Source: Planctomycetota bacterium (GTDB taxonomy: Bacteria > Planctomycetota > UBA8742 > UBA2392). Taken from it: DNA of 60,360 nucleotides. The DNA is taken from positions 1-60,360 of the forward strand of contig JADZFR010000026.1 of NCBI GenBank assembly GCA_020849795.1. Direction: 5' to 3'. The notes beneath the pieces were generated by a model, which worked only from the letters and a program-made list of their open reading frames with translations, was not told the DNA's origin and made no database searches. The position numbers and the translations under genes are program-made. Below, piece after piece: positions 4,089 through 60,337 of the stretch. Within the stretch, counting starts at the first letter, position 1; every line of letters begins with the position of its first letter.

Positions 4089-5060
4089 TCACTTGCGGCG
4101 GATCAGGCGGTCTTCGTCCACGCCGATGGCGGCGCGCAGGCCCTGCGTGTCGCCGAGCCAGCGGCGGCCGTCGGAGTAGTAGCCGGCGGTCGGCTTGATG
4201 CTGGCGTCGTGCTGAGCCCACCACTGGTTGAACTGGTGCATGTGCAGCTCGCGGATGTACTTGGCGAACATGCTGGCCAGCGCGATCGGCAAGTGGCGGC
4301 CCTCGCCTTTTTCAATGAACGCGACGAACATGCGCGGCACGCCCTCGACCTCAGGAATCGTCAGCTCGTAGGTGCTCAGCTTGTCGCTTTCGTGCAGGAC
4401 CTCGACCCGCGCCTCGGGAAACTCGTTGTGCAGCGTGCGTGCATAGCGTGTGCGGCCGCCCTGCCGGTCCACCACCACGGCGAGGTTGCGGTGCTGCTGC
4501 CAGAAGCGACCGAGGATGCTTCCGATGCACTCGAACTCGGCGCGGGCCTTGCTTTTCAAGCGCTGAAGCAGCTTGTTGAATTCGCCCTCAAGCAGCGCGG
4601 TGACGCCCAGCCCCGCCAGTTCGATGCCCGCGGCTTCCAGCGCCCGCCGGATCGGTTGCGCGCGCAGGCGCATGCGGGCGGCGTCGGCTTCGAGCGGGAA
4701 CGGCGCCGGTGGCGCACCGTACCAGTCATAGTCCTGCCAGCGCGCGGGCGCGCATACACCGTCGCGAAAGGCCGCATAGTCGTCGATGGTTGCGCCGGCG
4801 ACGCTGGCCCAGCACAGTACCTCTTCTTCGAGCGCCTTGATCTTGCCCGACGTGTAGATCTGCTTGCTGTCGCATACCACGGGCCGGTGTTTGCGCTCGT
4901 GCGGCTCGCGCCCGAGGTTCAGCGCGTCCCACAGGTCCAGCTTCAGCAGCGCGTCAGCCGACAGCGGCCTGGCAAAGGAAAAAGCGGCATAGCCAAGCGT
5001 GAGCGGCCCGAGAATCGGGCCCAGGCCGGCTTCGTCGATACCGAGCAGGACAGGAAACAT
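4089..5060 (-). CDS. RNase HII-like protein, divergent
   Basis: The N-terminus reads GIDEAGLGPILGPL, the RNase HII motif 'GxDEAGRGPxxGPl' with Asp9 and Glu10 kept but Arg replaced by Leu. CDSK (Asp64), VVVDRQGG (Asp198) and LASMFAKYIRE (262-271, cf. family 'AASixAKvxRD') also match the RNase HII core. The protein is 323 residues against about 200 for RNase HII, with inserted material between the motifs. It may cut RNA in RNA:DNA hybrids, or be a repurposed family member. It starts a leftward run of four genes with lptB 46 bases downstream. Confidence 0.7.
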   Translation of the reverse strand: MFPVLLGIDEAGLGPILGPLTLGYAAFSFARPLSADALLKLDLWDALNLGREPHERKHRPVVCDSKQIYTSGKIKALEEEVLCWASVAGATIDDYAAFRDGVCAPARWQDYDWYGAPPAPFPLEADAARMRLRAQPIRRALEAAGIELAGLGVTALLEGEFNKLLQRLKSKARAEFECIGSILGRFWQQHRNLAVVVDRQGGRTRYARTLHNEFPEARVEVLHESDKLSTYELTIPEVEGVPRMFVAFIEKGEGRHLPIALASMFAKYIRELHMHQFNQWWAQHDASIKPTAGYYSDGRRWLGDTQGLRAAIGVDEDRLIRRK

Positions 5061-5129
5061 GCGCGCGGTGTAGGTCGCTGCCGCCCCGGGTGCAACGCGT
5101 GACGGGAGTTTGCGGATAAGTGGACAAGT

Positions 5130-5285
5130 CTAGAGCACTTTCAGGGTTCGTTTGCAGGCTTCCGCTTGCGGCGAGCTTCGCATCTCTTCGTCGCGCTCCC
5201 TCCAGCCACGCCTGCGTCCGCGCTCCTTGATCTGCTTGCTCGGCGCGGCGCGGAATCTCTGCAACAAACCCTGAAAGAGTTCTAG
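5130..5285. repeat. imperfect 155-bp palindromic (MITE-like) element
   Basis: The outer 19 bases (5130-5148) match the reverse complement of 5267-5285 at 17 of 19 positions. Similarity continues inward for about 45 bases on each side, with the central part unpaired. The structure resembles a small non-autonomous inverted-repeat element. Its right end (ctag) supplies the stop codon of the adenosine deaminase gene. No target duplication or second copy is visible in the window. The element fills most of the otherwise empty 5061-5281 gap. Confidence 0.55.
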
Positions 5286-6322
5286 CGAGGGTATTCCACG
5301 CCGCGCGCGGCGCACCAGGTTTTGGCTTCGCGGTCGAAGCGCTGCAACAACCTGGCGCGCAATGCCTCGTCCATGAAGCCGCGCTGAAAACCCTCGCGGG
5401 CGATGCGCACCAGCGTGCTGCAATTGACACCGAGCACTTCGTGGGCGACCTCGTACTCGCGCGTCACGCTGGTGTGGAACATCGCCGGGTCGTCGCTGCT
5501 CAGTACCACAGGCACGCCCGCCGCCAGCAGCCGCGGCAAGGGGTGATCGGCCAGGCGTTTCACGGCGCCGGTGCACTCGTTGCTGACGGGGCAGATTTCC
5601 AGCGCGACGTTGCGCTCGACCAGCAGCTGCATCAGCGCCGGGTCGTGGGCGCTGCGAATGCCGTGGCCGATGCGTTGCGGGCGCAAGTCAAGCGCGTCGT
5701 ACACGTCGTCGGGCGAACTGACTTCGCCCGCGTGCACCGTCAGGTTCAGCCCCATGTCGCGCGCGCGCTGGTACACCCGCCTGAACTGCGGCAGCGGGTC
5801 GGTGTGTTCGGCGCCGGCCATGTTGAACGCGCAGATGTCCACTTCGCCCAGCAGCGGCTCAATGTCGCGCAAGCGGGCAAGCGCGTAATCTGCGCCGTGT
5901 TGCCGTCCCGCGGCCACCTGCATGCGCAGGGCAATGCCGTGCTGCACCTCGGCGGCTTTCAAGCCGCGCCACACTGCACGCACGATGTCGGCGCTGTCGT
6001 GGCCGCCATCGATGACACTGGTGCCCAGGCCGACCATGATCTCGGCAAACAGCACATTCTGGCGCACCAGCGAGCGCGCGACTTCGTAGGCGGCGAACTC
6101 GAAGTCTTCGGCCGATTTCAGAAAGCTGACGGTCCACTTGTAGACCTCAAGAAAGTGGGCGAAGTCGTCAAACTCATAGCGCCTGCGCACATGCTCAAGA
6201 GTGGGGGCCTCAGCCAGCCGGCCGTGTTTCTTGACCAACTCGAAGAGCGCCTCTACGGGGATGGAGCCCTCCAGGTGCAAATGGAGTTCGGTCTTGGGAA
6301 GGCTGGAAAAGTCAATCGGCAA
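5282..6322 (-). CDS. add: adenosine deaminase
   Basis: This TIM-barrel metal hydrolase converts adenosine to inosine. Visible family residues are the Zn-binding HLH in TELHLHLEGS (14 and 16 from the chosen start), VHAGE, the S-N-E-C-T segment and SSDDPAMF. The open frame has no ATG near the domain start. I place the start at a TTG (6322) just before PIDFSSLPK, which gives 346 residues, the normal size. The frame continues upstream only as an artefact under the next gene. The start has no clear SD, so it is uncertain by a few codons. The stop codon is contributed by the 5130-5285 repeat. Confidence 0.9.
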   Translation of the reverse strand: MPIDFSSLPKTELHLHLEGSIPVEALFELVKKHGRLAEAPTLEHVRRRYEFDDFAHFLEVYKWTVSFLKSAEDFEFAAYEVARSLVRQNVLFAEIMVGLGTSVIDGGHDSADIVRAVWRGLKAAEVQHGIALRMQVAAGRQHGADYALARLRDIEPLLGEVDICAFNMAGAEHTDPLPQFRRVYQRARDMGLNLTVHAGEVSSPDDVYDALDLRPQRIGHGIRSAHDPALMQLLVERNVALEICPVSNECTGAVKRLADHPLPRLLAAGVPVVLSSDDPAMFHTSVTREYEVAHEVLGVNCSTLVRIAREGFQRGFMDEALRARLLQRFDREAKTWCAARGVEYPR

Positions 6323-6422
6323 CGCGGCGTCCCAATCCGGTCTTGCGTGGGGTGGTGTAAAGATTCGGGTAAGGATACGGCATGGATTCGCCGCGTGCCA
6401 ACCGCGATTTAAACTGGCCGCG

Positions 6423-6806
6423 TCAGGACTTGTCGATCGGCTGGCCGAAGACCAGCAGGTGGCCGTCGGGGTCAGGCATCTCGAACTCGCGCATGCCGTG
6501 CGGTTGATCCACGATCCCCGTGGGTTCATAGCCGGCAGCCAGCACCTGCTCGCGCATGGCGTCAAGGTCGTCGCTGTAGAAGTAGTACTGGGCCTGGAAG
6601 TAGCGGTCCTGCACCTTGGGCGCATCCGGGAAGTAGTGCGGGCTTGCCAGCATCAGCTTGACGCCGTTCTTCTGCATCATCGCCCAGCCGGATTTGCCGA
6701 CGTCATCCATGCGGTCGGCGACATCCAGGCCGACCACGTCGCTGTAGAACTTGATCGACGCCTGCACGTCGGCGCAGATCAACATCGGAATCATGCCTGT
6801 CAGCAT
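6423..6806 (-). CDS. VOC (glyoxalase/bleomycin-resistance) superfamily protein
   Basis: This protein of about 127 residues has the two beta-alpha-beta-beta-beta modules of the vicinal-oxygen-chelate fold. The first is IPMLICADVQASIKFYSDVVGLDV. The second ends in FEMPDPDGHLLVFGQP, a very common VOC C-terminal signature. A Glu in REFEMPDPDG could be a metal ligand. The substrate cannot be inferred. The start at 6806 is favoured by the gggggg run upstream. It lies 100 bases before add on the same strand. Confidence 0.85.
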   Translation of the reverse strand: MLTGMIPMLICADVQASIKFYSDVVGLDVADRMDDVGKSGWAMMQKNGVKLMLASPHYFPDAPKVQDRYFQAQYYFYSDDLDAMREQVLAAGYEPTGIVDQPHGMREFEMPDPDGHLLVFGQPIDKS

Positions 6807-6869
6807 GGCTGGCCCCCCGTGGTACACGGCCCATACTTAACTCACGCGGCGGCACGGCGCCACGGCCAA

Positions 6870-7982
6870 CTACTGGCGAAAGAACTTGCTCAGGCGCGGG
6901 CCGCGCTGCTGGGCGTAATTGCTTTGCAGGCCCACTCCGTACAGCTTGCTCGGCCTTACGCTCAGCTTCTCGTAGGCCATTTTGCAGACCGGCTGGCGGT
7001 GGCGCACAATCAAGTCGTCTTCGTAGGGCCGGACCTCAAGCACCGCGGGCGTGCCCTTAACTTCGCCCTTTTCGCCAAAGCCGAATCCGGGGTCGAAGAA
7101 GCCCGCATAGTGCGCGCGAAACTCGCCAGCGCTGGTGTCGTAGGGCAGCATCTCGACGGCGTAATCCGGCGGCACGCTCACGTACTCGCAGGTGCTGAAG
7201 ATGTAGAACGCGCCCTGGCTCAGAAACAGCGTGCCGTCTTTCGGGCGCATGATCGGCTCAAAGTACTCGTTGGCGTCGTGCTCGCCGATGCGGGCCAAAT
7301 CGACGGGCCGAAAGTTCTTGCGCGAAACGTAGCCGGCAATCGGCTGGTCAAGGTCAAGCGTCATCAGCAGCGCTTCGCCTTCGCCGCCGTCGTACAGGGC
7401 GTCGGTCATCGGCACCGGTTTGCCGCCCTGCTGCCACAGCAGCGGCGACTGCGCGTACAGCGCGCGCATCTCGTCGCCCGAAAGCAGCGAACGGTCGGCA
7501 TAGAAGATGGTCTGGTTCAGGCTGTCGCCGGCGCGCACCTTGACGTCGAAGCTCTTGGGAATCACCTCAAGCCACAACTCGCCGCTGTAGCCTTCAGGGA
7601 TCTTGTCGTAGCGCGGAGTGCCGTCGGCCAGCACGCGCGTTTGCAGGTCAATGCGGCCGGTGCTGCTTTTGTTGTTGGCGTATGCGCCGACGCCGTCGGG
7701 CAGCGCAAAGCGCTCGGCCAGCAGAATCAGGTACACGTTGTCGCGCACCAGCACGCCCGGTTCTTTCAGGTCGATCGGGTAGCGCGAGTAGCGCTCAATC
7801 AGGTCGGTCACGCGCTCGCCGGCCAGCGGCATCAGGCTGCCGGGCATCGAAAACGCGCGGCGCGAAAGCGTAAGGTCCAGGCTGCTGGGCTGGATCTGCT
7901 CGGGCTTGATGGCGGCGCTGCTGATGACACAGCCGTCGGCAATCAGCTTCTCAATCGACTGTGAGGGCAGGGTGCCGCGCAT
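6870..7982 (-). CDS. dcd: dCTP deaminase / dUTPase-fold protein, double-length
   Basis: Residues IQPSSLDLTLS and the later 'GRIDLQTRVLADGTPRYDKI' belong to the 2'-deoxycytidine 5'-triphosphate deaminase family, which turns dCTP into dUTP for dTMP synthesis. At 370 residues it is about twice the size of E. coli Dcd. It matches the long alphaproteobacterial-type form with two tandem dUTPase-like folds; the second is around DYAVEMLPYDTSAGEFR. Start choice: MRGTLPSQSIEKL at 7982. An ATG at 8018 abuts a terminator and is less likely. No partner gene is adjacent. Confidence 0.85.
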   Translation of the reverse strand: MRGTLPSQSIEKLIADGCVISSAAIKPEQIQPSSLDLTLSRRAFSMPGSLMPLAGERVTDLIERYSRYPIDLKEPGVLVRDNVYLILLAERFALPDGVGAYANNKSSTGRIDLQTRVLADGTPRYDKIPEGYSGELWLEVIPKSFDVKVRAGDSLNQTIFYADRSLLSGDEMRALYAQSPLLWQQGGKPVPMTDALYDGGEGEALLMTLDLDQPIAGYVSRKNFRPVDLARIGEHDANEYFEPIMRPKDGTLFLSQGAFYIFSTCEYVSVPPDYAVEMLPYDTSAGEFRAHYAGFFDPGFGFGEKGEVKGTPAVLEVRPYEDDLIVRHRQPVCKMAYEKLSVRPSKLYGVGLQSNYAQQRGPRLSKFFRQ

Positions 7983-54340: not shown

Positions 54341-54828
54341 CTGTGTTTCAATCGAGTCTTCGAGAATCTCGTCCGTACACGATTGGGTACACGATTGAGC
54401 TGGCTCGCCGATGCCCAACCTAGGGTGGAGCCAGACGCTGCTTGTCCCGAAGGCCAGTTGCTTGAGCCGCTGGCTAGCTGGTCACCATCATTCAAAAGAA
54501 CGTAGGCACGCTTGCTGACCATCACCGAAGAGGGGAATCGTTGGCTGAACTGACTGGTTGGCTGGAAGTGGGGTGGATCGCTCCCACCCCACTTGCCTGC
54601 TCAGTTTGACGACTAGCGTGTGCTGTCTATTCATTACACGCCAGTGTCAACGGTGCGTCAGATTTCAAGTTTCCATTTGCCGAGGGTTGGGCCACGCCGT
54701 ATGGTTCCTGTCGCAATTCCGGCATCCGACGACCAAGTTCGCGTCCCAGTGTCGCACCCTTTTGTAGCTTGCCGGGGGTCGCGCATGTTGCGCGGTACAC
54801 GAGGCCAAACAAGCATAGGGAACATCCC
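54341..54828. other. gene-poor spacer at the start of the accessory region
   Basis: About 490 bases have no gene I can support. A perfect 10-bp hairpin lies at 54567-54593 (agtggggtgg/ccaccccact). Around 54380-54400 the short direct repeat tacacgattg occurs twice. This may be debris from an element integrated at the tRNA. Confidence 0.45.
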
Positions 54829-56673
54829 ATGAATCCACATCGGGCGGGCAGTACACTTCTATTTGTTTTGGTATTGCTCGCAGCGAGCCTGTCTGCACAG
54901 CCGGCGAGCATCGACACGTTTCCGTACACGCCGGACAACACGGCTGAGGGTGCGGATTTTGTCGCCAACTACGGCACTGGGCCGACGACTAGCGGCTCCA
55001 CTTGGACGCAGGGTTCAGTGTCCAGCCCACGCCAGGGCAGCAGCGGGGCGGGTTCGACAGCTTGGGCTTGTCTTCCAACTTCGAACTACGCGAACAACAC
55101 CGTCACTTGGCTGCACTCGCCGATCTTTGACTTCACTGGCGTGTCCGGCATGCAGTTGCAGTTTGAACTGTGGGTGAAAGTGCGGAGCTACGACGGAGCG
55201 AAGCTGCAAGTTTCGACTAACGGCGGCTCCGCCTGGTCTGACGTGTCGGCGTTGTCGGTCTCTTACAATGGAACGTGCGCGCTCATCGCGACCAAGTTTG
55301 GTGGTTCGAGTAACTGCTGGACGGGCACCGGCCTTGGCGGCGGCAGCGCCAACACATGCTCGGTGAATCTCAACGCGTGGAGCGGGCAGTCGGACGTCCG
55401 GTTTCGTTGGTGCTTTGTAGCCGAGGACACTGAGAAGGCATCTCCCGACAATGGCCCCGTGGTCGACAGCCCGCGCGTTGTTGCCGTTACTTCTTCCGTG
55501 GCATATGCCAACGGCTTTGCCGCTGTGCCGCAGGGCGCAACGGTGGAGGCGACGATTACGAAGGTTGGTGGCGACGACTTTGTTGGAGGCATGACGGTCG
55601 ATGTGGCGGGAACTGGAGTTACCGGCACAGTCACCTCTGTGAACAGCGTCGACGAGATTGAAGTGGACTTTTCCGCCACCCGCGTCGCGGACGTTGGGCC
55701 ACACACGTTCTGGATCAAGAACGGCTCAACAAACATCTGCCAAGGCACGGTCGAGGTCTATCACCCGCACCAGCGCGTGCCTGCGCGCGACGGCTCTGTT
55801 CAGGAACCGCCGCAGAACGCCGCCATGGGCGCCAACGGCGTCTATCTGCACAACGGCGAGTTCCGCCACGACCTGCCGTTCGTTTCCATCCCCGGCCGCA
55901 TGCTGCCGCTTGCTGTCGGCGGTACGTATCGCAGCCGCTACGAGTCCCTTGGCTGGCTGGGCGCCGGCTGGACGGTTTCGTTTGACCAGCGGCTGTACTA
56001 CCATTCAGGAGGCGACGAGATCGATTTGTACTCGGGCAGCGGGCGCATTGACACGTTCGAGCTGGAGTCCGGCGGCACCGCGGGCGAGGGACCGTACGTC
56101 AAAGCCGGCTTCTTCTTTGAGATTGCCCGCGACAACAACGGCACCCAGACCAAAACGGACGATGTCTTCACGATCACCTACGCTCATGGCTCCACGGCGA
56201 CGTTCGAGGCTGTGCATATCGACATTGGCGGCGACTGGGCCTACCGCATCACCGAGTTCGCCGACCGTTACGGCAACGCGGTCGAGTACGTCTACGATGG
56301 CGATGGCTATCTGACCGAAATCCGCGGCGACATGTATGACTCCGGCAGCCCGAGCGTGTACCGCCTCGTCATCGCGTACAATGCTCACGGGCGCGTTGCC
56401 ACAATCACCGACTACGCCGACTATAGCGGCCAGTCGTCAGTGATCGGCGGCAGCTACACCGATGAGCGCGTGTGGGAGTTCATCTACAACAGTGACGCGC
56501 AACTGACCGACATCAAACTGCCGAAGACCGAACGCTACGACAGCGAAACTAAGGGCAGCGACTACCGCACGCGCGTGCAGTTCACGTACGCGTCCTCCAG
56601 CGACCGCATGGAAGAGGTGATCGACGCCCGCCAGGCTGACCTTCCCCCCGATAACTGGTCCGGCCTAAAGTGA
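54829..56673 (+). pseudogene. RHS/DUF6531-type exported protein, truncated by an IS3 element
   Basis: The signal peptide (MNPHRAGSTLLFVLVLLAASLSAQ in pieces, residues 1-24) leads to a beta-rich N-terminal half of about 320 residues. The DUF6531/RHS part follows: 'HNGEFRHDLPFVSIPGRM', 'GGTYRSRYESLGWLGAGWTVSFDQRLYYH', 'DRYGNAVEYVYDGDGYLTEIRG'. RHS proteins are long polymorphic secreted or toxin-delivery shells. Here only 614 codons remain, and the last dozen come from the IS3 left end (56637). The RHS repeats, core cleavage motif and toxic tip are missing. It is therefore most likely a broken gene. Confidence 0.78.
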
Positions 56674-56700
56674 GTCCTGCAGGCCGGGACAGGGGGACAT

Positions 56701-56973
56701 ATGGCTCGAAAGCGTTGGAAACCGGATGAGATCGTGGCGATCCTCCGGGAGGCGGAGCGGCTGGGCAGCATCCAGGAAGTCATCCGTACATACGGCATCA
56801 GCGACCAGACCTTCTACCGCTGGCGCAAGATGTACGGCGGTGTGAGTGGCAACGAAGTCGCGAGGCTCAAAAAGCTTGAAGACGAGAACCGCCGTCTCAA
56901 GCAGCTTGCCGGCGACCAGGCCCTTGCCATCCAGATCATGAGGGAAGAACTGGGAAAAAAGGGCTGGGCTTGA
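56701..56973 (+). CDS. IS3-family transposase OrfA
   Basis: This 90-residue protein has a helix-turn-helix that binds the element's ends ('RKRWKPDEIVAILREAER' and 'EVIRTYGISDQTFYRWRKMYGG') and a leucine-rich coiled coil ('ARLKKLEDENRRLKQLAG'). Near the end a perfect A-AAA-AAG slippery heptamer lies at 56955-56961. It should shift a share of ribosomes by -1 into orfB and create the OrfAB transposase. Confidence 0.95.
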   Translation: MARKRWKPDEIVAILREAERLGSIQEVIRTYGISDQTFYRWRKMYGGVSGNEVARLKKLEDENRRLKQLAGDQALAIQIMREELGKKGWA

Positions 56974-57851
56974 AGCCGATCTTGGCCAATCTTCAAGCCC
57001 GGGGCGTCAGCCAGCGACGGGCGTGCACGGCTCTGCGGTTCAACCGCAGCAGTGCCCGCTATGTTGCCAGCCAGAGCCCGGTCAACGAGGCGATCCGGCA
57101 CGAGCTGCTCACCCTGGCGCGGCGCCATCGCCGCTGGGGCAGCCCGCGGCTGCACGCGGTGATCCGGGACAGCGGCCACGCCGTGAACCACAAGCGCGTG
57201 GAACGCATCTACCGCGAGGCCGGCCTGACCCTGCCCAGACGCAGGCCGAGGCGGAAGCGTACACAGCCGACACAATGCAGGGAGATTGAAGCCAGAGGGC
57301 CGAATGAGGTGTGGAGCTACGATTTCGTGCACGACCGCACCCAATACGGCGAGAAGCTGAAGGTGCTGGTGCTGGTGGACGAGTACACAAGGGAATGCCT
57401 GGAAGTCCGGGTCGAGAAACGACTCCGGGGCCAAGACGTCCTGGAAACGCTGGACGAGGTGATGCACGAGCGTGGAACACCAAGGCACATCCGCAGCGAC
57501 AACGGCTCAGAGTTCCGCAGCCGGGTGTTGAAACGGTGGCTGAAAGAAAAGGGCGTAGACCCGATCTTTGTCGAGCCCGGCAGCCCCTGGCAGAACGGAT
57601 ACGTGGAGAGCCTGAACGGAAAACTGCGCGATGAATGCCTGAACGAGGAAATGTTCTTCAGCCGCGCAGAGGCCCAGACGGTCGTGGACTGGTGGCGGCA
57701 GGTGTACAACGAACAGCGGCCGCACATGTCGCTGGGCTACAAGACGCCCAGAGCGTTCGCGGCCGAGCACGAAGAATCAAAGACAACTGCAAAACGCGGT
57801 CTAGTAAGAATGGAAGGAATGAACGTGGTCACGGACACCGTGGCCGACTAA
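56970..57851 (+). CDS. IS3-family transposase OrfB (DDE catalytic domain)
   Basis: The rve-type catalytic domain of about 293 residues has Asp in 'EVWSYDFVHDRT', Asp in 'HIRSDNGSEFRS' and Glu in 'NGYVESLNGKLRDECLN', the DDE triad. The frame is -1 to orfA and begins before its stop, so it is most likely expressed by frameshifting at 56955-56961. The domain appears intact, so the element may still be active. Confidence 0.95.
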   Translation: MKPILANLQARGVSQRRACTALRFNRSSARYVASQSPVNEAIRHELLTLARRHRRWGSPRLHAVIRDSGHAVNHKRVERIYREAGLTLPRRRPRRKRTQPTQCREIEARGPNEVWSYDFVHDRTQYGEKLKVLVLVDEYTRECLEVRVEKRLRGQDVLETLDEVMHERGTPRHIRSDNGSEFRSRVLKRWLKEKGVDPIFVEPGSPWQNGYVESLNGKLRDECLNEEMFFSRAEAQTVVDWWRQVYNEQRPHMSLGYKTPRAFAAEHEESKTTAKRGLVRMEGMNVVTDTVAD

Positions 57852-57884
57852 CATAACGCCGGACCAGAAAACGGGGGAAGCTCA

Positions 57885-58151
57885 ATGGGTAATGAGGCAA
57901 GGCACGTGACAACCTTTACGACTAGCGGGATGGTGATCCGCAACGGATTCCTGTGAATGGGCTGCCCGGACGCAATTCGGGCGGCCCTGGAGGGGCTTGC
58001 GGGCATCACACAAGTCAGCTTCAACTTGCAGACACGGACTTTCAAGGTGGAAGGTTCGGCGGCCGAGGATCGTACGGCGGTTGAAGCCGCCGTTGCAGCG
58101 GCGGGTAATTTCGCGGTTCTTGATTGGCAGAGTGGCAAGGAGGCGTCATGA
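57885..58151 (+). CDS. selenocysteine-containing HMA-domain protein (UxxC)
   Basis: This frame gives 88 residues when the in-frame TGA at 57954-57956 (residue 24) is read as selenocysteine. The sequence around it, NGFL-U-MGC-PDAIRAALEGL, aligns with the HMA metal-binding loop 'GMxCxxC...V..aL..l', with Sec in place of the first Cys and Cys27 kept. The rest of the domain ('GITQVSFNLQTRTFKVEG' and 'AVEAAVAAAGNF') has the beta-alpha-beta-beta-alpha-beta pattern of MerP/CopZ/Atx1. The ATG at 57885 follows gggggaag in the IS right end. A second in-frame ATG at 57930 could be the original start if the gene was cut by the IS. It ends with ATGA overlap with the next gene. A stem-loop follows the TGA. 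Confidence 0.85.
57954..57985 (+). promoter_or_regulatory. candidate bSECIS of the UxxC HMA gene
   Basis: The UGA is followed by an 8-bp stem: gctgcccg (57961-57968) pairs with cgggcggc (57978-57985), with one G-U pair, and a 9-base loop containing G. The loop begins 15 bases past the UGA, close to the spacing of known bacterial SECIS elements. Confidence 0.6.
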
Positions 58152-58933
58152 AGTGGTTGATTTCGATTTGCGGCTTGCTCGCGTTCCTGACGGCGTGCAG
58201 CAGCCGACAGGAGCAACCCGTTAGCGAAACGGCATGTGGCGGAGCGTGCCGGGGCGCCAACGTGGAACCCGCTGTGGACAACAACGAACAGCCCGCGGAC
58301 CCCGCACCCGCATCGGTGGAGCCTGCCGAGGTCTGGATCGTTGTTGACGGCATGACCAAGGTTCAGGGCATCACGTGAATGGGCTGACCGAACTCGGTCC
58401 AGCAGGCCCTGGAAGGGCTGCAAGGAATCAAGGAAATCGAAACCGACCTGGCGAACGACAGGTTCCGGATTGCCTACGCCGCGGACGTTGTGAGCGTGGA
58501 GAAAATGCTGAGTGCGATCAGCGAGTTGGGCTTCACCGGCAAAGTCGTCGATGAGCCCGCGGAAGCGGCTGCGGTGCCAGGCGTGCGGGTAGACGTCAAA
58601 TCACTGCCTCAACCTCTGAAAGATACGTTCGAGCGCGCGGCAAAGGACGGTCGTCTTGTAATCGTGGATATTCACGGCCCCGGCTGAGCGCCCTGCGCGA
58701 AAATGGAACGCGTGACGTATCCATCAGAAGTTGTGCAGGGAGCGATGGCGGGGCAGTTTGAGCGGGTTGTTCTTGACCTCGATGGTGACGCGGACGCCGC
58801 CGCGCTTTTCAAGCCGGAGGCGATTCCCGTGGCCGTAATACTCGATGCAGCCGGAAATGAGCTCGCGCGAAAGGTTGGGTTCGTCCCGGCGGACGACTAT
58901 GCGGTTTGGCTGAATTCGATCCGACAGAAGTGA
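58148..58933 (+). CDS. triple-selenocysteine lipoprotein: HMA (UxxU) fused to thioredoxin (UxxC)
   Basis: A 261-residue protein results when three in-frame TGAs (58376, 58385, 58685; residues 77, 80, 180) are read as Sec. It begins with a lipoprotein signal (lipobox LTAC, Cys17), then CGGAC (residues 30-34) and a Pro/Ala linker. The HMA domain follows with GIT-U-MG-U-PNSVQQALEGL; both metal-binding Cys are Sec. From about residue 150 a thioredoxin fold follows: 'GRLVIVDIHGPG-U-APC-AKME' holds a UxxC active site in the WCxxC position, and 'EAIPVAVILDAAGNE' supplies the cis-Pro. No other stop occurs in the frame. It starts by ATGA overlap with the previous gene. It is probably anchored to a membrane facing the periplasm, binding soft metals and cycling selenol redox. 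Confidence 0.88.
58376..58403 (+). promoter_or_regulatory. candidate bSECIS of the UMGU pair
   Basis: The stem gctgaccg (58383-58390) pairs with cggtccagc (58395-58403), with one bulged C and loop aact. It begins 7 bases past the first UGA, exactly as in the preceding gene. The second UGA (58385) lies in the stem. A weaker stem (cagc...gctg, 58400-58420) may serve that one. Confidence 0.55.
58685..58714 (+). promoter_or_regulatory. candidate bSECIS of the thioredoxin UGA
   Basis: tgcgcg (58694-58699) pairs with cgcgtg (58709-58714), including two G-U pairs. The 9-base loop aaaatggaa carries GG about 20 bases past the UGA. This fits the bacterial SECIS pattern of a short stem with G in the apical loop. 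Confidence 0.58.
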
Positions 58934-59009
58934 GCTAGAAAGGAATAGCCGGGCTGCGCCACCTGTTTGCGTGCTGTTGCCGGACTCATCGAACTCTTGG
59001 GAGACAAAC

Positions 59010-59471
59010 ATGCGTTACGTTATGGCTTTTGCCCTGTTTCTGCTGCTCGGCGCGGGCATTTCCGCCCCGCTGATGGCGCAGGACACAGGCGAGAAGAAAG
59101 ACGTCGAGAAGAAGGAAGCTGAAGCCAAGCCGGTCACCTACAAGGCAGGCATCGACGGCATGGGCTGAGGCGGGGCGTGACCGCCCAAGGTCGTAAAGAC
59201 CGTAACCCGCCTGGATGGCGTGGAAAAGGCAGAAGCCAGCTTCAAGGACAGCAACGTCACGATCACCATGAAGGCAGGCAAGACACTTACCAAGGAAGAC
59301 CTTGAGAAGGCATTCAAGGACAGCCAGTTCAGCGTGACGTCGTTTGAAACTGTCGCTGAAGAAGAAGAAAAGAAAGAGGGCGACGAGGGCAAGAAGGAAG
59401 ACCCCAAGAAAGACGACGGCTCAAAGAAAGAAGACCCGAAGAAGGAAGAGCCTCCAAAGAAGTCAGACTGA
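59010..59471 (+). CDS. selenocysteine-containing HMA-domain protein (UxxxU)
   Basis: This 153-residue exported protein results when TGAs at 59166 and 59178 (residues 53 and 57) are read as Sec. A signal peptide (residues 1-24) and a Lys/Glu linker come first. The HMA domain reads GIDGMG-U-GGA-U-PPKVVKTVTRLDGV, then 'VTITMKAGKTLTKEDLEKAFKDSQFSV'. The U-GGA-U spacing is one residue longer than CxxC; it parallels CGGAC in the preceding lipoprotein. The last 40 residues are a charged KKEDPKK-type tail. SD gggag precedes the ATG. A strong terminator follows. It is separated from the previous gene by 76 bases. Confidence 0.85.
59166..59201 (+). promoter_or_regulatory. candidate bSECIS elements of the UGGAU motif
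   Basis: After the first UGA, gggcg (59173-59177) pairs with cgccc (59182-59186) with the second UGA in its loop. After the second UGA, ggtc (59189-59192) pairs with gacc (59198-59201) around gtaaa. The loops lie 12 and 15 bases past their UGAs. The stems are short. Confidence 0.45.
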
Positions 59472-59487: not shown

Positions 59488-59517
59488 GCGGGCGGGGGTT
59501 AAAACCCCGCCCGCTTT
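59488..59517 (+). terminator. strong terminator closing the selenoprotein cluster
   Basis: gcgggcgggg (59488-59497) pairs with ccccgcccgc (59505-59514), loop gttaaaa, followed by ttt, 17 bases after the stop of the third selenoprotein gene. Confidence 0.88.
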
Positions 59518-59590: not shown

Positions 59591-59800
59591 ATGCGAAACT
59601 TTCTTGATGACAAGTTTGCGATCCACGACGTGGGCGCACCCGCCCTCAAGGGCGGCGTAGTGCCGGGCGAAAAGCTGATCGACCTGGCGAAGCGCATCCG
59701 CAATACCGGCGGCACGAACAACCGCGCCATGCCCGGGTTCCCCGATGACCGCATGCCGCAGCAGGACTTGCTCGACCTCCTGGCCTACTTCAAGCAGTAG
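59591..59800 (+). CDS. haem-less cytochrome-c-like C-terminal domain protein
   Basis: This 69-residue protein has 'PGEKLIDLAKRIRNTGGTNNRAMPGFPDDRMPQQDLLDLLAYFKQ', which strongly resembles the second half of a class I cytochrome c, including the MPGF segment of the axial Met. The CxxCH haem site and signal peptide are absent. The upstream frame has a TAG at 59576, so they are not hidden there. It has a good SD (gggaggcg), which argues that it is translated. It is either a remnant or a non-haem relative. Confidence 0.6.
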   Translation: MRNFLDDKFAIHDVGAPALKGGVVPGEKLIDLAKRIRNTGGTNNRAMPGFPDDRMPQQDLLDLLAYFKQ

Positions 59801-59847: not shown

Positions 59848-60018
59848 ATGATGACCGCGAACGACAACTTTTTCCTCGCCCAGATGAACTGCCCGATGTG
59901 CGACATGATGGTGGGCTGGGGCTGGTTTGGGATGGCTCTGGCTGTCGCGCTTGCGCTGTCTCTGATTGCCGCCCTGCTTGCATTGGTCGTGTTTCTGGTG
60001 CGCCGCAGCGCCGCGTGA
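59848..60018 (+). CDS. 56-residue membrane peptide with CPMC motif
   Basis: The frame encodes an N-terminal 'AQMNCPMCDMMVGW' (Cys15 and Cys18, Met-rich) followed by one long transmembrane helix (about residues 24-48) and an RR positive end. Cys-x-x-Cys with flanking Met near a membrane suits copper or mercury binding. There is no clear SD, so expression is uncertain. Its place right after the Sec-HMA cluster supports a metal-related role. Confidence 0.6.
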   Translation: MMTANDNFFLAQMNCPMCDMMVGWGWFGMALAVALALSLIAALLALVVFLVRRSAA

Positions 60019-60073: not shown

Positions 60074-60337
60074 ATGATCGTGCCGGCGAACATCCTTGCC
60101 GCTGCCCTGATGATCGTGCTGCCGTACCTGCGGCCGTGCGAATGCGGCGTGACCTGGATGTTCTGCACCGGCGAGGAAACTGCTGCTAAGCCCGCGCCGG
60201 ACCACTGCCACGACATGCCCGACGACACGGGCACCTGTCCCTACCGAGAATGCCGTCGGGCACAGTTTGCGTACCGAAACATCCGGGGAGTTTCGACGGC
60301 ACGGCGTAGTATCTTGGCCGGACTCGCTCAGTCTTGA
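60074..60337 (+). CDS. exported Cys/His-rich small protein
   Basis: This 87-residue protein has a hydrophobic N-terminus (residues 5-20), then six Cys: CEC (22, 24), Cys31, DHCHDM (Cys45 with two His) and CPYREC (55, 60). This is a likely metal-binding envelope peptide. No known family is recognised. It lies behind a MerR-like-spaced promoter and ends 23 bases before the window edge, so a metal-resistance operon may continue outside. Confidence 0.65.
   Translation: MIVPANILAAALMIVLPYLRPCECGVTWMFCTGEETAAKPAPDHCHDMPDDTGTCPYRECRRAQFAYRNIRGVSTARRSILAGLAQS

Follow-up and report, generated by a model that had tools for sequence, protein, structure and literature searches.

Three adjacent genes for HMA-domain proteins in the draft genome of a Planctomycetota bacterium (GCA_020849795.1; 3.97 Mb, 94% complete) contain six TGA codons in frame, which raises the question whether these codons are read as selenocysteine (Sec, U) and, if so, what Sec serves for in such proteins. 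The window analyzed here is the entire contig C26 of this genome (JADZFR010000026.1, 60,360 bp), in which the gene trio lies on the + strand between an IS3-type insertion sequence (IS) element and the contig end (Table 1). As the initial annotation had claimed, the three frames are open apart from these six TGAs, all at exactly the positions it gave, and contain neither TAA nor TAG. Its view that TGA is an ordinary stop nearby and that no code change is needed also held: genes 1, 2 and 3 all terminate on TGA (58149, 58931 and 59469, respectively), and the long frames of the window with biased third positions end on TGA in 17 cases, on TAG in 15 and on TAA in 8. The count of five TGAs on Cys positions of HMA or thioredoxin motifs proved one too low; the second U of UGGAU in gene 3 also occupies a motif position, shifted by one residue, because the 13 gene-3 places read show U-x2-U or U-x3-U. 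Finally, the description as tandem Sec-HMA genes with double-Sec sites fits genes 2 and 3, whereas gene 1 has a UxxC site; gene 2 proved to be a fusion of HMA and thioredoxin domains.

Genes 1 and 2 share 4 nt (58148-58151), and genes 2 and 3 are separated by 76 bp. Gene 1 likely begins with GTG 57906, 28 bp past the end of the IS element, because its spacing to the motif equals that from the ATG start of the relative in genome G008 (designations of this kind are ours); ATG 57885 is also possible. Domain scans were run with U read as C and, for gene 1, from 57885. All three products exceeded the curated cut-off of Pfam HMA (PF00403, 24.8 bits) with 33.9, 46.3 and 30.2 bits, respectively, and gene 2 additionally matched Thioredoxin_7 (38.5 bits). 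Judged by eye, the N-terminal stretch MKWLISICGLLAFLTAC of gene 2 resembles a lipoprotein signal, and gene 3 appears to be secreted. The fold predicted for gene 2 by AlphaFold2 (mean pLDDT 76.6) had its best matches in the DsbD gamma domain and thioredoxins, with a copper-binding domain of HMA7 following at rank 49. We predict that each gene of the trio encodes a selenoprotein: gene 1 an HMA chaperone (UxxC), gene 2 an HMA-thioredoxin lipoprotein (UxxU and UxPC), and gene 3 a secreted HMA protein (UGGAU).

Table 1. Features of the gene trio, its surroundings and related regulators. Locations refer to the window unless a locus is named; SECIS, selenocysteine insertion sequence; S.D., standard deviation; MFE, minimum free energy.
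Feature	Location	Strand	Basis
Gene 1, predicted Sec-HMA protein, UxxC (UMGC), UGA 57954	57906..58151	+	Pfam HMA; orthologues in G006 and G008
Gene 2, lipoprotein-like HMA (UxxU, UGA 58376/58385) fused to thioredoxin (UxPC, UGA 58685)	58148..58933	+	Pfam; conserved UGAs; fold match
Gene 3, secreted-looking predicted Sec-HMA protein, GMGUGGAU (UGA 59166/59178), Lys/Glu-rich tail	59010..59471	+	Pfam HMA; class homologues
SECIS-like hairpin, gene 1	57983..57997	+	18/18 pairs (3 orthologues); 12.0 expected under synonymous-codon null
Hairpin A, begins within second UGA of gene 2	58386..58399	+	34/35 pairs in 7 copies; null 22.9
Hairpin B, SECIS-like, 3-nt loop	58405..58419	+	42/42 pairs in 7 copies; null 30.0 (S.D. 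1.9)
SECIS-like hairpin past thioredoxin UGA	58703..58724	+	summed MFE z -4.2 versus synonymous null, 7 copies
SECIS-like hairpin, gene 3	59189..59201	+	summed MFE z -3.3, 4 sequences
IS3-type element (OrfA 56701-56973, OrfB 56970-57851), directly upstream of gene 1	56645..57877	+	repeats; transposase and rve domains
G+C-rich inverted repeat GCGGGCGGGG/CCCCGCCCGC, downstream of gene 3	59488..59514	+	sequence
MerR-family regulator with UGA at position 112, upstream of genes 1-2	L055 7944-8333	+	alignment
MerR-family regulator with UGA at position 112, upstream of genes 1-2	L053 8378-7980	-	alignment

The six in-frame UGA codons

From the sequence data, insertion of Sec at all six UGAs is near-certain. 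The genome contains the complete machinery: selA (C7:13448-14800, 536.8 bits) lies 0.7 kb from a tRNA-Sec gene with the anticodon TCA (UCA in the RNA; C7:15541-15629), selB on contig C46 encodes 646 aa (333.5 bits, cut-off 242.25), and selD on contig C3 (399.5 bits) has an in-frame UGA of its own in the motif GAGUGCK. Thus, the objection that the genome might lack selA, selB, selD or tRNA-Sec, which the initial annotation had raised against itself, fails. Further thioredoxin-like proteins with one in-frame TGA were seen at G000:C36:4289-4603 and in several genomes of the window's family, which suggests a sizeable selenoproteome in this family.

In a search of 16 genomes of the family, gene 2 was found at full length at seven places in six genomes. 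Each copy contained exactly three TGAs and no other stop, and the three UGA codons were conserved in 21 of 21 cases. By comparison, only 10 of 37 invariant residues (Met, Trp and Sec excepted) kept one codon throughout the seven copies, differences at synonymous sites (pS) amounted to 0.5-0.8 in most pairs, and the ratio of nonsynonymous to synonymous changes (dN/dS) behind the UGAs was about 0.2 (0.04/0.21 and 0.05/0.26) in the closest pair, G007/G008b. Across the phylum, at least 70 of 392 genomes had a match to gene 2 at 1e-14, a lower bound because no more than six candidates per genome were scored. Outside the family, 29 loci were read that had been picked because their matches extended at least into the HMA domain, with mainly-thioredoxin partial matches set aside. 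Both domains and a Sec HMA motif were present in 28 of them (25 genomes), the motif being of the type UxxU at 27 loci and UxxC at L152 alone; the remaining locus, L175, encodes a Cys-containing fusion. The first residue of the thioredoxin site in these 28 was Sec in 9, Cys in 19 and Trp in none, and in L170 the second Cys of this site was replaced by Ser. Altogether, the 35 copies read had Sec-Sec (34) or Sec-Cys (1) in the HMA site and Sec (16) or Cys (19) in the thioredoxin site. The homologues with Cys or Sec at the same positions that the initial annotation had asked for were thus found, and its second objection, stops or frameshifts unrelated to Cys positions, fails as well. The conservation of 21 UGAs at pS values of 0.5-0.8, together with the 28 further places, is more than chance. 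A full-length CxxC orthologue of gene 2 was found neither among the 35 copies nor among the best 7,993 candidates scored from the protein database.

When gene 2 alone was used as database query, a single, thioredoxin-only match was obtained. An alignment of 16 sequences gave eight matches, of which only P0079 was full length, with Trp at all three sites. The database relatives seen begin behind the HMA UGAs or show Trp at the sites, and standard gene calling hides these predicted selenoproteins. Viral contigs contained no relative, plasmids a single HMA-only match, and the named records carrying the gene are metagenome-assembled Planctomycetota. A side observation concerns three genera of one other family (L154, L155, L157), in which a fourth in-frame UGA lies next to the cis-Pro (IPDT-U-IL); it is conserved at a position that is not a Cys position, and the relative L163 has Arg there.

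Orthologues of gene 1 with the motif FLUMQC precede gene 2 in G006 and G008. Matches to gene 3 occurred at 24 places in 11 of 20 genomes of the class, with two TGAs in 14 and none in 10; two of the 14 double-TGA alignments also cross a TAG. The spacing U-x2-U or U-x3-U was found in 13 of the 14 double-TGA places (that of the window included), and Cys paralogues or relatives have GMxCxxC. Another lipoprotein-like HMA gene with a double-Sec motif (GMDUGQU) lies on contig C37 of the same genome, ahead of a Cys-HMA gene, and the former has Sec relatives in six other genomes of the family. A Sec-HMA lipoprotein-like gene of gene-3 type (GMTUGxGU) was seen in L118, L119 and L121 beside what appears by eye to be a MacA/MacB-type exporter, in L119 and L121 also beside an apparent catalase-peroxidase.

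Bacterial SECIS elements are spaced approximately 16-37 nt after the UGA. A stem-loop close past the UGA, as characteristic of selenoproteins of the SelB/SECIS type, was found in all three genes (Table 1); the apical loop of hairpin B lies approximately 33 nt past the first and 24 nt past the second HMA UGA. The corresponding hairpin of the C37-type gene reached a z of -6.2 against the synonymous null, and two other gene-3 groups gave weaker values (-2.4 and -2.0). In 28 sequences from the phylum, 135 of 168 pairs of the hairpin B stem were kept versus 107.6 expected (S.D. 4.2), even though six of these sequences have another register; at the same register, four Cys-HMA controls kept 16 of 24 pairs versus 17.0 expected. 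Hairpin A was not conserved in gene 1: at its register, four of five pairs were not kept in three gene-1 sequences. In one family (L167, L168, L170, L172-L174), only one or two of six hairpin B pairs were kept, and a different hairpin lies near the same place. Covariation was evaluated in 27 of the 35 sequences, with the six loci of this family, L152 (TGC as its second codon) and L057 (a near-copy) left out. Seven pairs of hairpins A and B had changed on both sides, and the covariation score was 0.226 versus 0.109 (S.D. 0.013) in shuffled alignments, a value reached in none of 500 shuffles (slid versions, ≤0.059); six of the 27 sequences are from the window's own family, and the set is related rather than independent. 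RNAalifold predicted the main stem unaided. The Rfam search found no SECIS element at E ≤ 1. These statistics are to be taken as strong indications and not as clean probabilities, because the windows were chosen from these related sequences.

Regulators and genomic neighbors

In G006 and G008, gene 1 is immediately preceded by a MerR-family gene (Pfam MerR) of the same orientation. The open frame of this regulator comprises 111 residues and ends on TGA, and the annotated protein from G008 (P0005) stops exactly at this UGA. When the frame is read through, U112 aligns with the first metal-loop Cys of other MerR proteins, the next Cys is at position 120, and Cys77 is present; we take positions 77, 112 and 120 to be the ligand positions of CueR/MerR. 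In such sensors, a Cys at position 77 fits divalent ions, a Ser fits Cu(I). The profile matched the solved structures of MerR, CadR and CueR. Nineteen MerR places were located in 16 of 20 genomes of the class; among the 17 whose C-termini were compared, position 112 was Cys in 14, UGA in two and neither in one. Of 74 database proteins, only the group with Cys77 was used (n = 23); here, position 112 was Cys in 20 and Trp in one, and two proteins end just before it, namely P0005, which is identical to the G008 frame, and the metagenome protein P0006. The codons past the UGA read RSGRCxFL in both G006 and G008 and include an identical GCAGC-GGTC-GCTGC hairpin. As this hairpin gave p values of only 0.06 and 0.10 against the synonymous null, the case for a Sec-containing MerR is based mainly on the alignment. 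The two regulators share the domain make-up and Cys 77 and 120 with the sensors CueR, ZntR and MerR and differ from them by the UGA at position 112; if Sec is inserted there, they would represent a new kind of metal sensor.

In the window, the place of merR is occupied by the IS3-type element, and the surroundings of the gene cluster showed no MerR motif; control in this contig is therefore probably altered. The terminal inverted repeats of the element (32 nt, 56645-56676 and 57846-57877) are 78% complementary, and no clear target duplication was found. The C-terminus of the open reading frame (ORF) 54769-56673 runs into the left repeat, and this ORF is therefore probably truncated by the element.

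Sec-HMA genes cluster elsewhere in the phylum as well. In G013, the row comprises merR, an outer-membrane-like protein (a label based on weak matches of the C37 relative only), a Sec-HMA lipoprotein, a Cys-rich HMA protein and a Sec-HMA protein of gene-3 type; this order recurs in G015 and, with the last two genes exchanged, in G011. Loci of other families also show gene 2 next to additional Sec-HMA genes (L158, L159, L164, L168) or fused to one (L160). MerR genes near gene 2 were recognized in L156, L159, L171 and L175 (by motif; in L159 by Pfam). Linkage thus points to MerR control in relatives. Metal transport genes were found as well: L159 (G062) has a heavy-metal P-type ATPase together with a partial CusA/CzcA pump, L160 (G069) a CusA/CzcA pump, and L168 (G249) a CopZ-type/MerT/HMA protein preceding gene 2. 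L175 (G319, 5050-6996, - strand) encodes a single 649-aa zf_CopZ-MerT-HMA-HMA-thioredoxin protein without in-frame stops, which links MerT to the HMA-thioredoxin family.

Metal ligands, redox sites and known systems

With a probability of roughly 0.78, we read the trio as encoding selenolate chaperones for soft metals that in relatives are under MerR control; domains and neighbors suggest that the system may be dedicated to such metals. Hg(II) fits the MerR and MerT links as well as selenium chemistry, and Cu(I) fits the CusA and ATPase neighbors. In the cell envelope, selenolates of the HMA domains would capture thiophilic ions such as Hg(II) or Cu(I), likely tighter or faster than CxxC would; the thioredoxin domain may keep the Se/S ligands reduced or release the metal, and the captured ion would be retained or handed on to an efflux pump. 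The operon would be induced by a sensor of MerR type, which in two relatives carries a predicted Sec at one of the ligand positions for the metal. The roles known for Sec are mostly those of a redox catalyst; in these proteins, selection appears to keep it as a metal-binding ligand, because the HMA site is Sec-Sec in 34 of 35 copies while the redox-type thioredoxin site varies between Sec and Cys. Why a cell bears the cost of selenolate metal sites thereby becomes a directly testable question.

A number of results weigh against this assignment. MerT was found in none of 16 genomes of the family (one of 20 in the class), and MerA over the cut-off in none of 20 genomes of the class, all of which contain sub-cut-off matches. 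The four MerR proteins scanned were below every metal-specific NCBIfam cut-off; for the Hg-specific model TIGR02051 (cut-off 150.85), the regulators of the relatives scored 113.3 and 106.1 bits. Among the seven family loci read, gene 3 adjoins genes 1 and 2 only in the window. Domain models cannot separate metal binding from a redox role of UxxU. The folding energy of the 60 nt after the UGAs was modestly low, with mean z values of -0.65 for gene 1 (n = 3), -0.80 for the gene 2 HMA site (n = 7), +0.31 for the thioredoxin site (n = 7) and -1.13 for gene-3 and C37 types (n = 27, including seven gene-2 sites and one spurious frame), versus -0.49 for Cys-HMA controls (n = 6). As the energy of the whole 60 nt is a poor test for SECIS elements, the SECIS case rests on the local hairpins.

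How far do other explanations account for the locus? Reading UGA as tryptophan, as in code 4, or assuming decayed genes would be in line with P0079, a metagenome protein named copper chaperone CopZ/thioredoxin-related by JGI, but its three Trp residues probably derive from translation of the contig with TGA as Trp; separately, this case indicates that contigs rich in Sec may be assigned to code 4 by mistake in gene calling. The TGA stops of the genes, the presence of tRNA-Sec, SelA, SelB and SelD, the thioredoxin site with Cys in 19 and Trp in none of the 28 outside-family relatives, and the fully conserved UGAs with purifying selection behind them leave hardly any room for this explanation. 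A code change, pseudogenes and chance were all dropped. That the proteins serve selenium itself, in its storage or delivery or in selenite or selenide handling, would agree with several Sec residues, three of them in gene 2, in small and probably exported proteins. It is nevertheless very improbable, as the six UGAs are confined to HMA and thioredoxin motif positions, and no selenium-metabolism gene was noticed in the neighbor loci, where most neighbors were inspected without a family scan.

A redox function has more to recommend it: the UxxU sites would form diselenides, and the HMA-thioredoxin protein would be a thiol-disulfide oxidoreductase or a metal-protein-thiol reductase instead of a metal carrier. 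The thioredoxin domain of gene 2 is DsbD-gamma-like, its first site is Sec or Cys in 35 of 35 copies, and UxxU is known from peroxiredoxin-like selenoproteins according to the accessible part of an ocean survey (PMC2398784). We still consider this function unlikely, as genes 1 and 3 carry an HMA domain only, and the MerR linkage and the MerT, CusA and ATPase neighbors of relatives point to metals. Within the preferred assignment to soft metals, we favor, with less confidence, a selenium-based metal regulon of Planctomycetota, in which a MerR sensor with a Sec ligand would induce envelope Sec-Sec HMA proteins, one with its own Sec-thioredoxin reductant, and in which the HMA metal site would practically never be plain Cys-Cys. 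If true, this would be, as far as known, the first case of a Sec-based metal sensor as well as of a dedicated selenolate metallochaperone pathway.

A mer operon typically comprises MerR, MerP, MerT and MerA. The systems described here resemble it in the MerR linkage of relatives, the HMA carrier and the MerT fusion of a distant relative, and differ from it in the Sec ligands. A classical mer pathway is ruled out by the lack of MerT in the family and of MerA over the cut-off. The MerP model (TIGR02052, cut-off 92.55) gave only 15.9, 24.9 and 36.1 bits for genes 1-3. Among the closest described systems is NF041115 (UxxU_metal_bind), an HMA-like domain with a double-Sec UxxU site; unlike gene 2, its model of 74 positions covers a single domain without thioredoxin fusion. 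Genes 1, 2 and 3 scored 22.0, 56.8 and 29.8 bits, below the cut-off of 95, and 13 of the 16 members of the HMA-thioredoxin alignment matched this family at E 1e-5 or better. A review lists NF041115 as 'putative mercuric reductase' with UxxU and two Sec (PMC13188914). Predicted Sec in proteins of mercuric-transport type is also shared by the MerT/CopZ fusion-like selenoprotein NF045683, for which gene 2 was far below the cut-off (12.1 of 375 bits) and genes 1 and 3 were not listed, and by the MerP and MerT selenoproteins of the Global Ocean Sampling survey, whose accessible MerP row gives small counts and no motif (PMC2398784). The multi-selenoprotein operons SAO and Tso of Haft and co-workers, of which SAO is linked to organometals in the text accessible (PMC13188914), likewise have several selenoproteins per operon, but these belong to other protein families; the thioredoxin domain of gene 2 matched TsoB weakly (27.4 of 805 bits). 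The novelty claimed initially is thus to be narrowed: single HMA UxxU selenoproteins are known (NF041115; accessible part of PMC13188914), whereas a description of a Sec-HMA tandem cluster, a triple-Sec HMA-thioredoxin selenoprotein or a Sec-MerR was not found in the open-license full text of PubMed Central.

Further features of the window

The inverted repeat downstream of gene 3 is possibly the end of the transcription unit; a scan for consensus terminators did not flag it. Three small ORFs lie between gene 3 and the contig end. The first (59591-59800) has no heme motif but otherwise resembles the C-terminal portion of cytochrome c (Cytochrome_CBB3, 15.2 bits, sub-cut-off), and that at 60074-60337 is Cys-rich and matched no family over the cut-off. 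The ORF between them (approximately 59850-60018) contains an NCPMC motif and, judged by eye, a likely membrane stretch.

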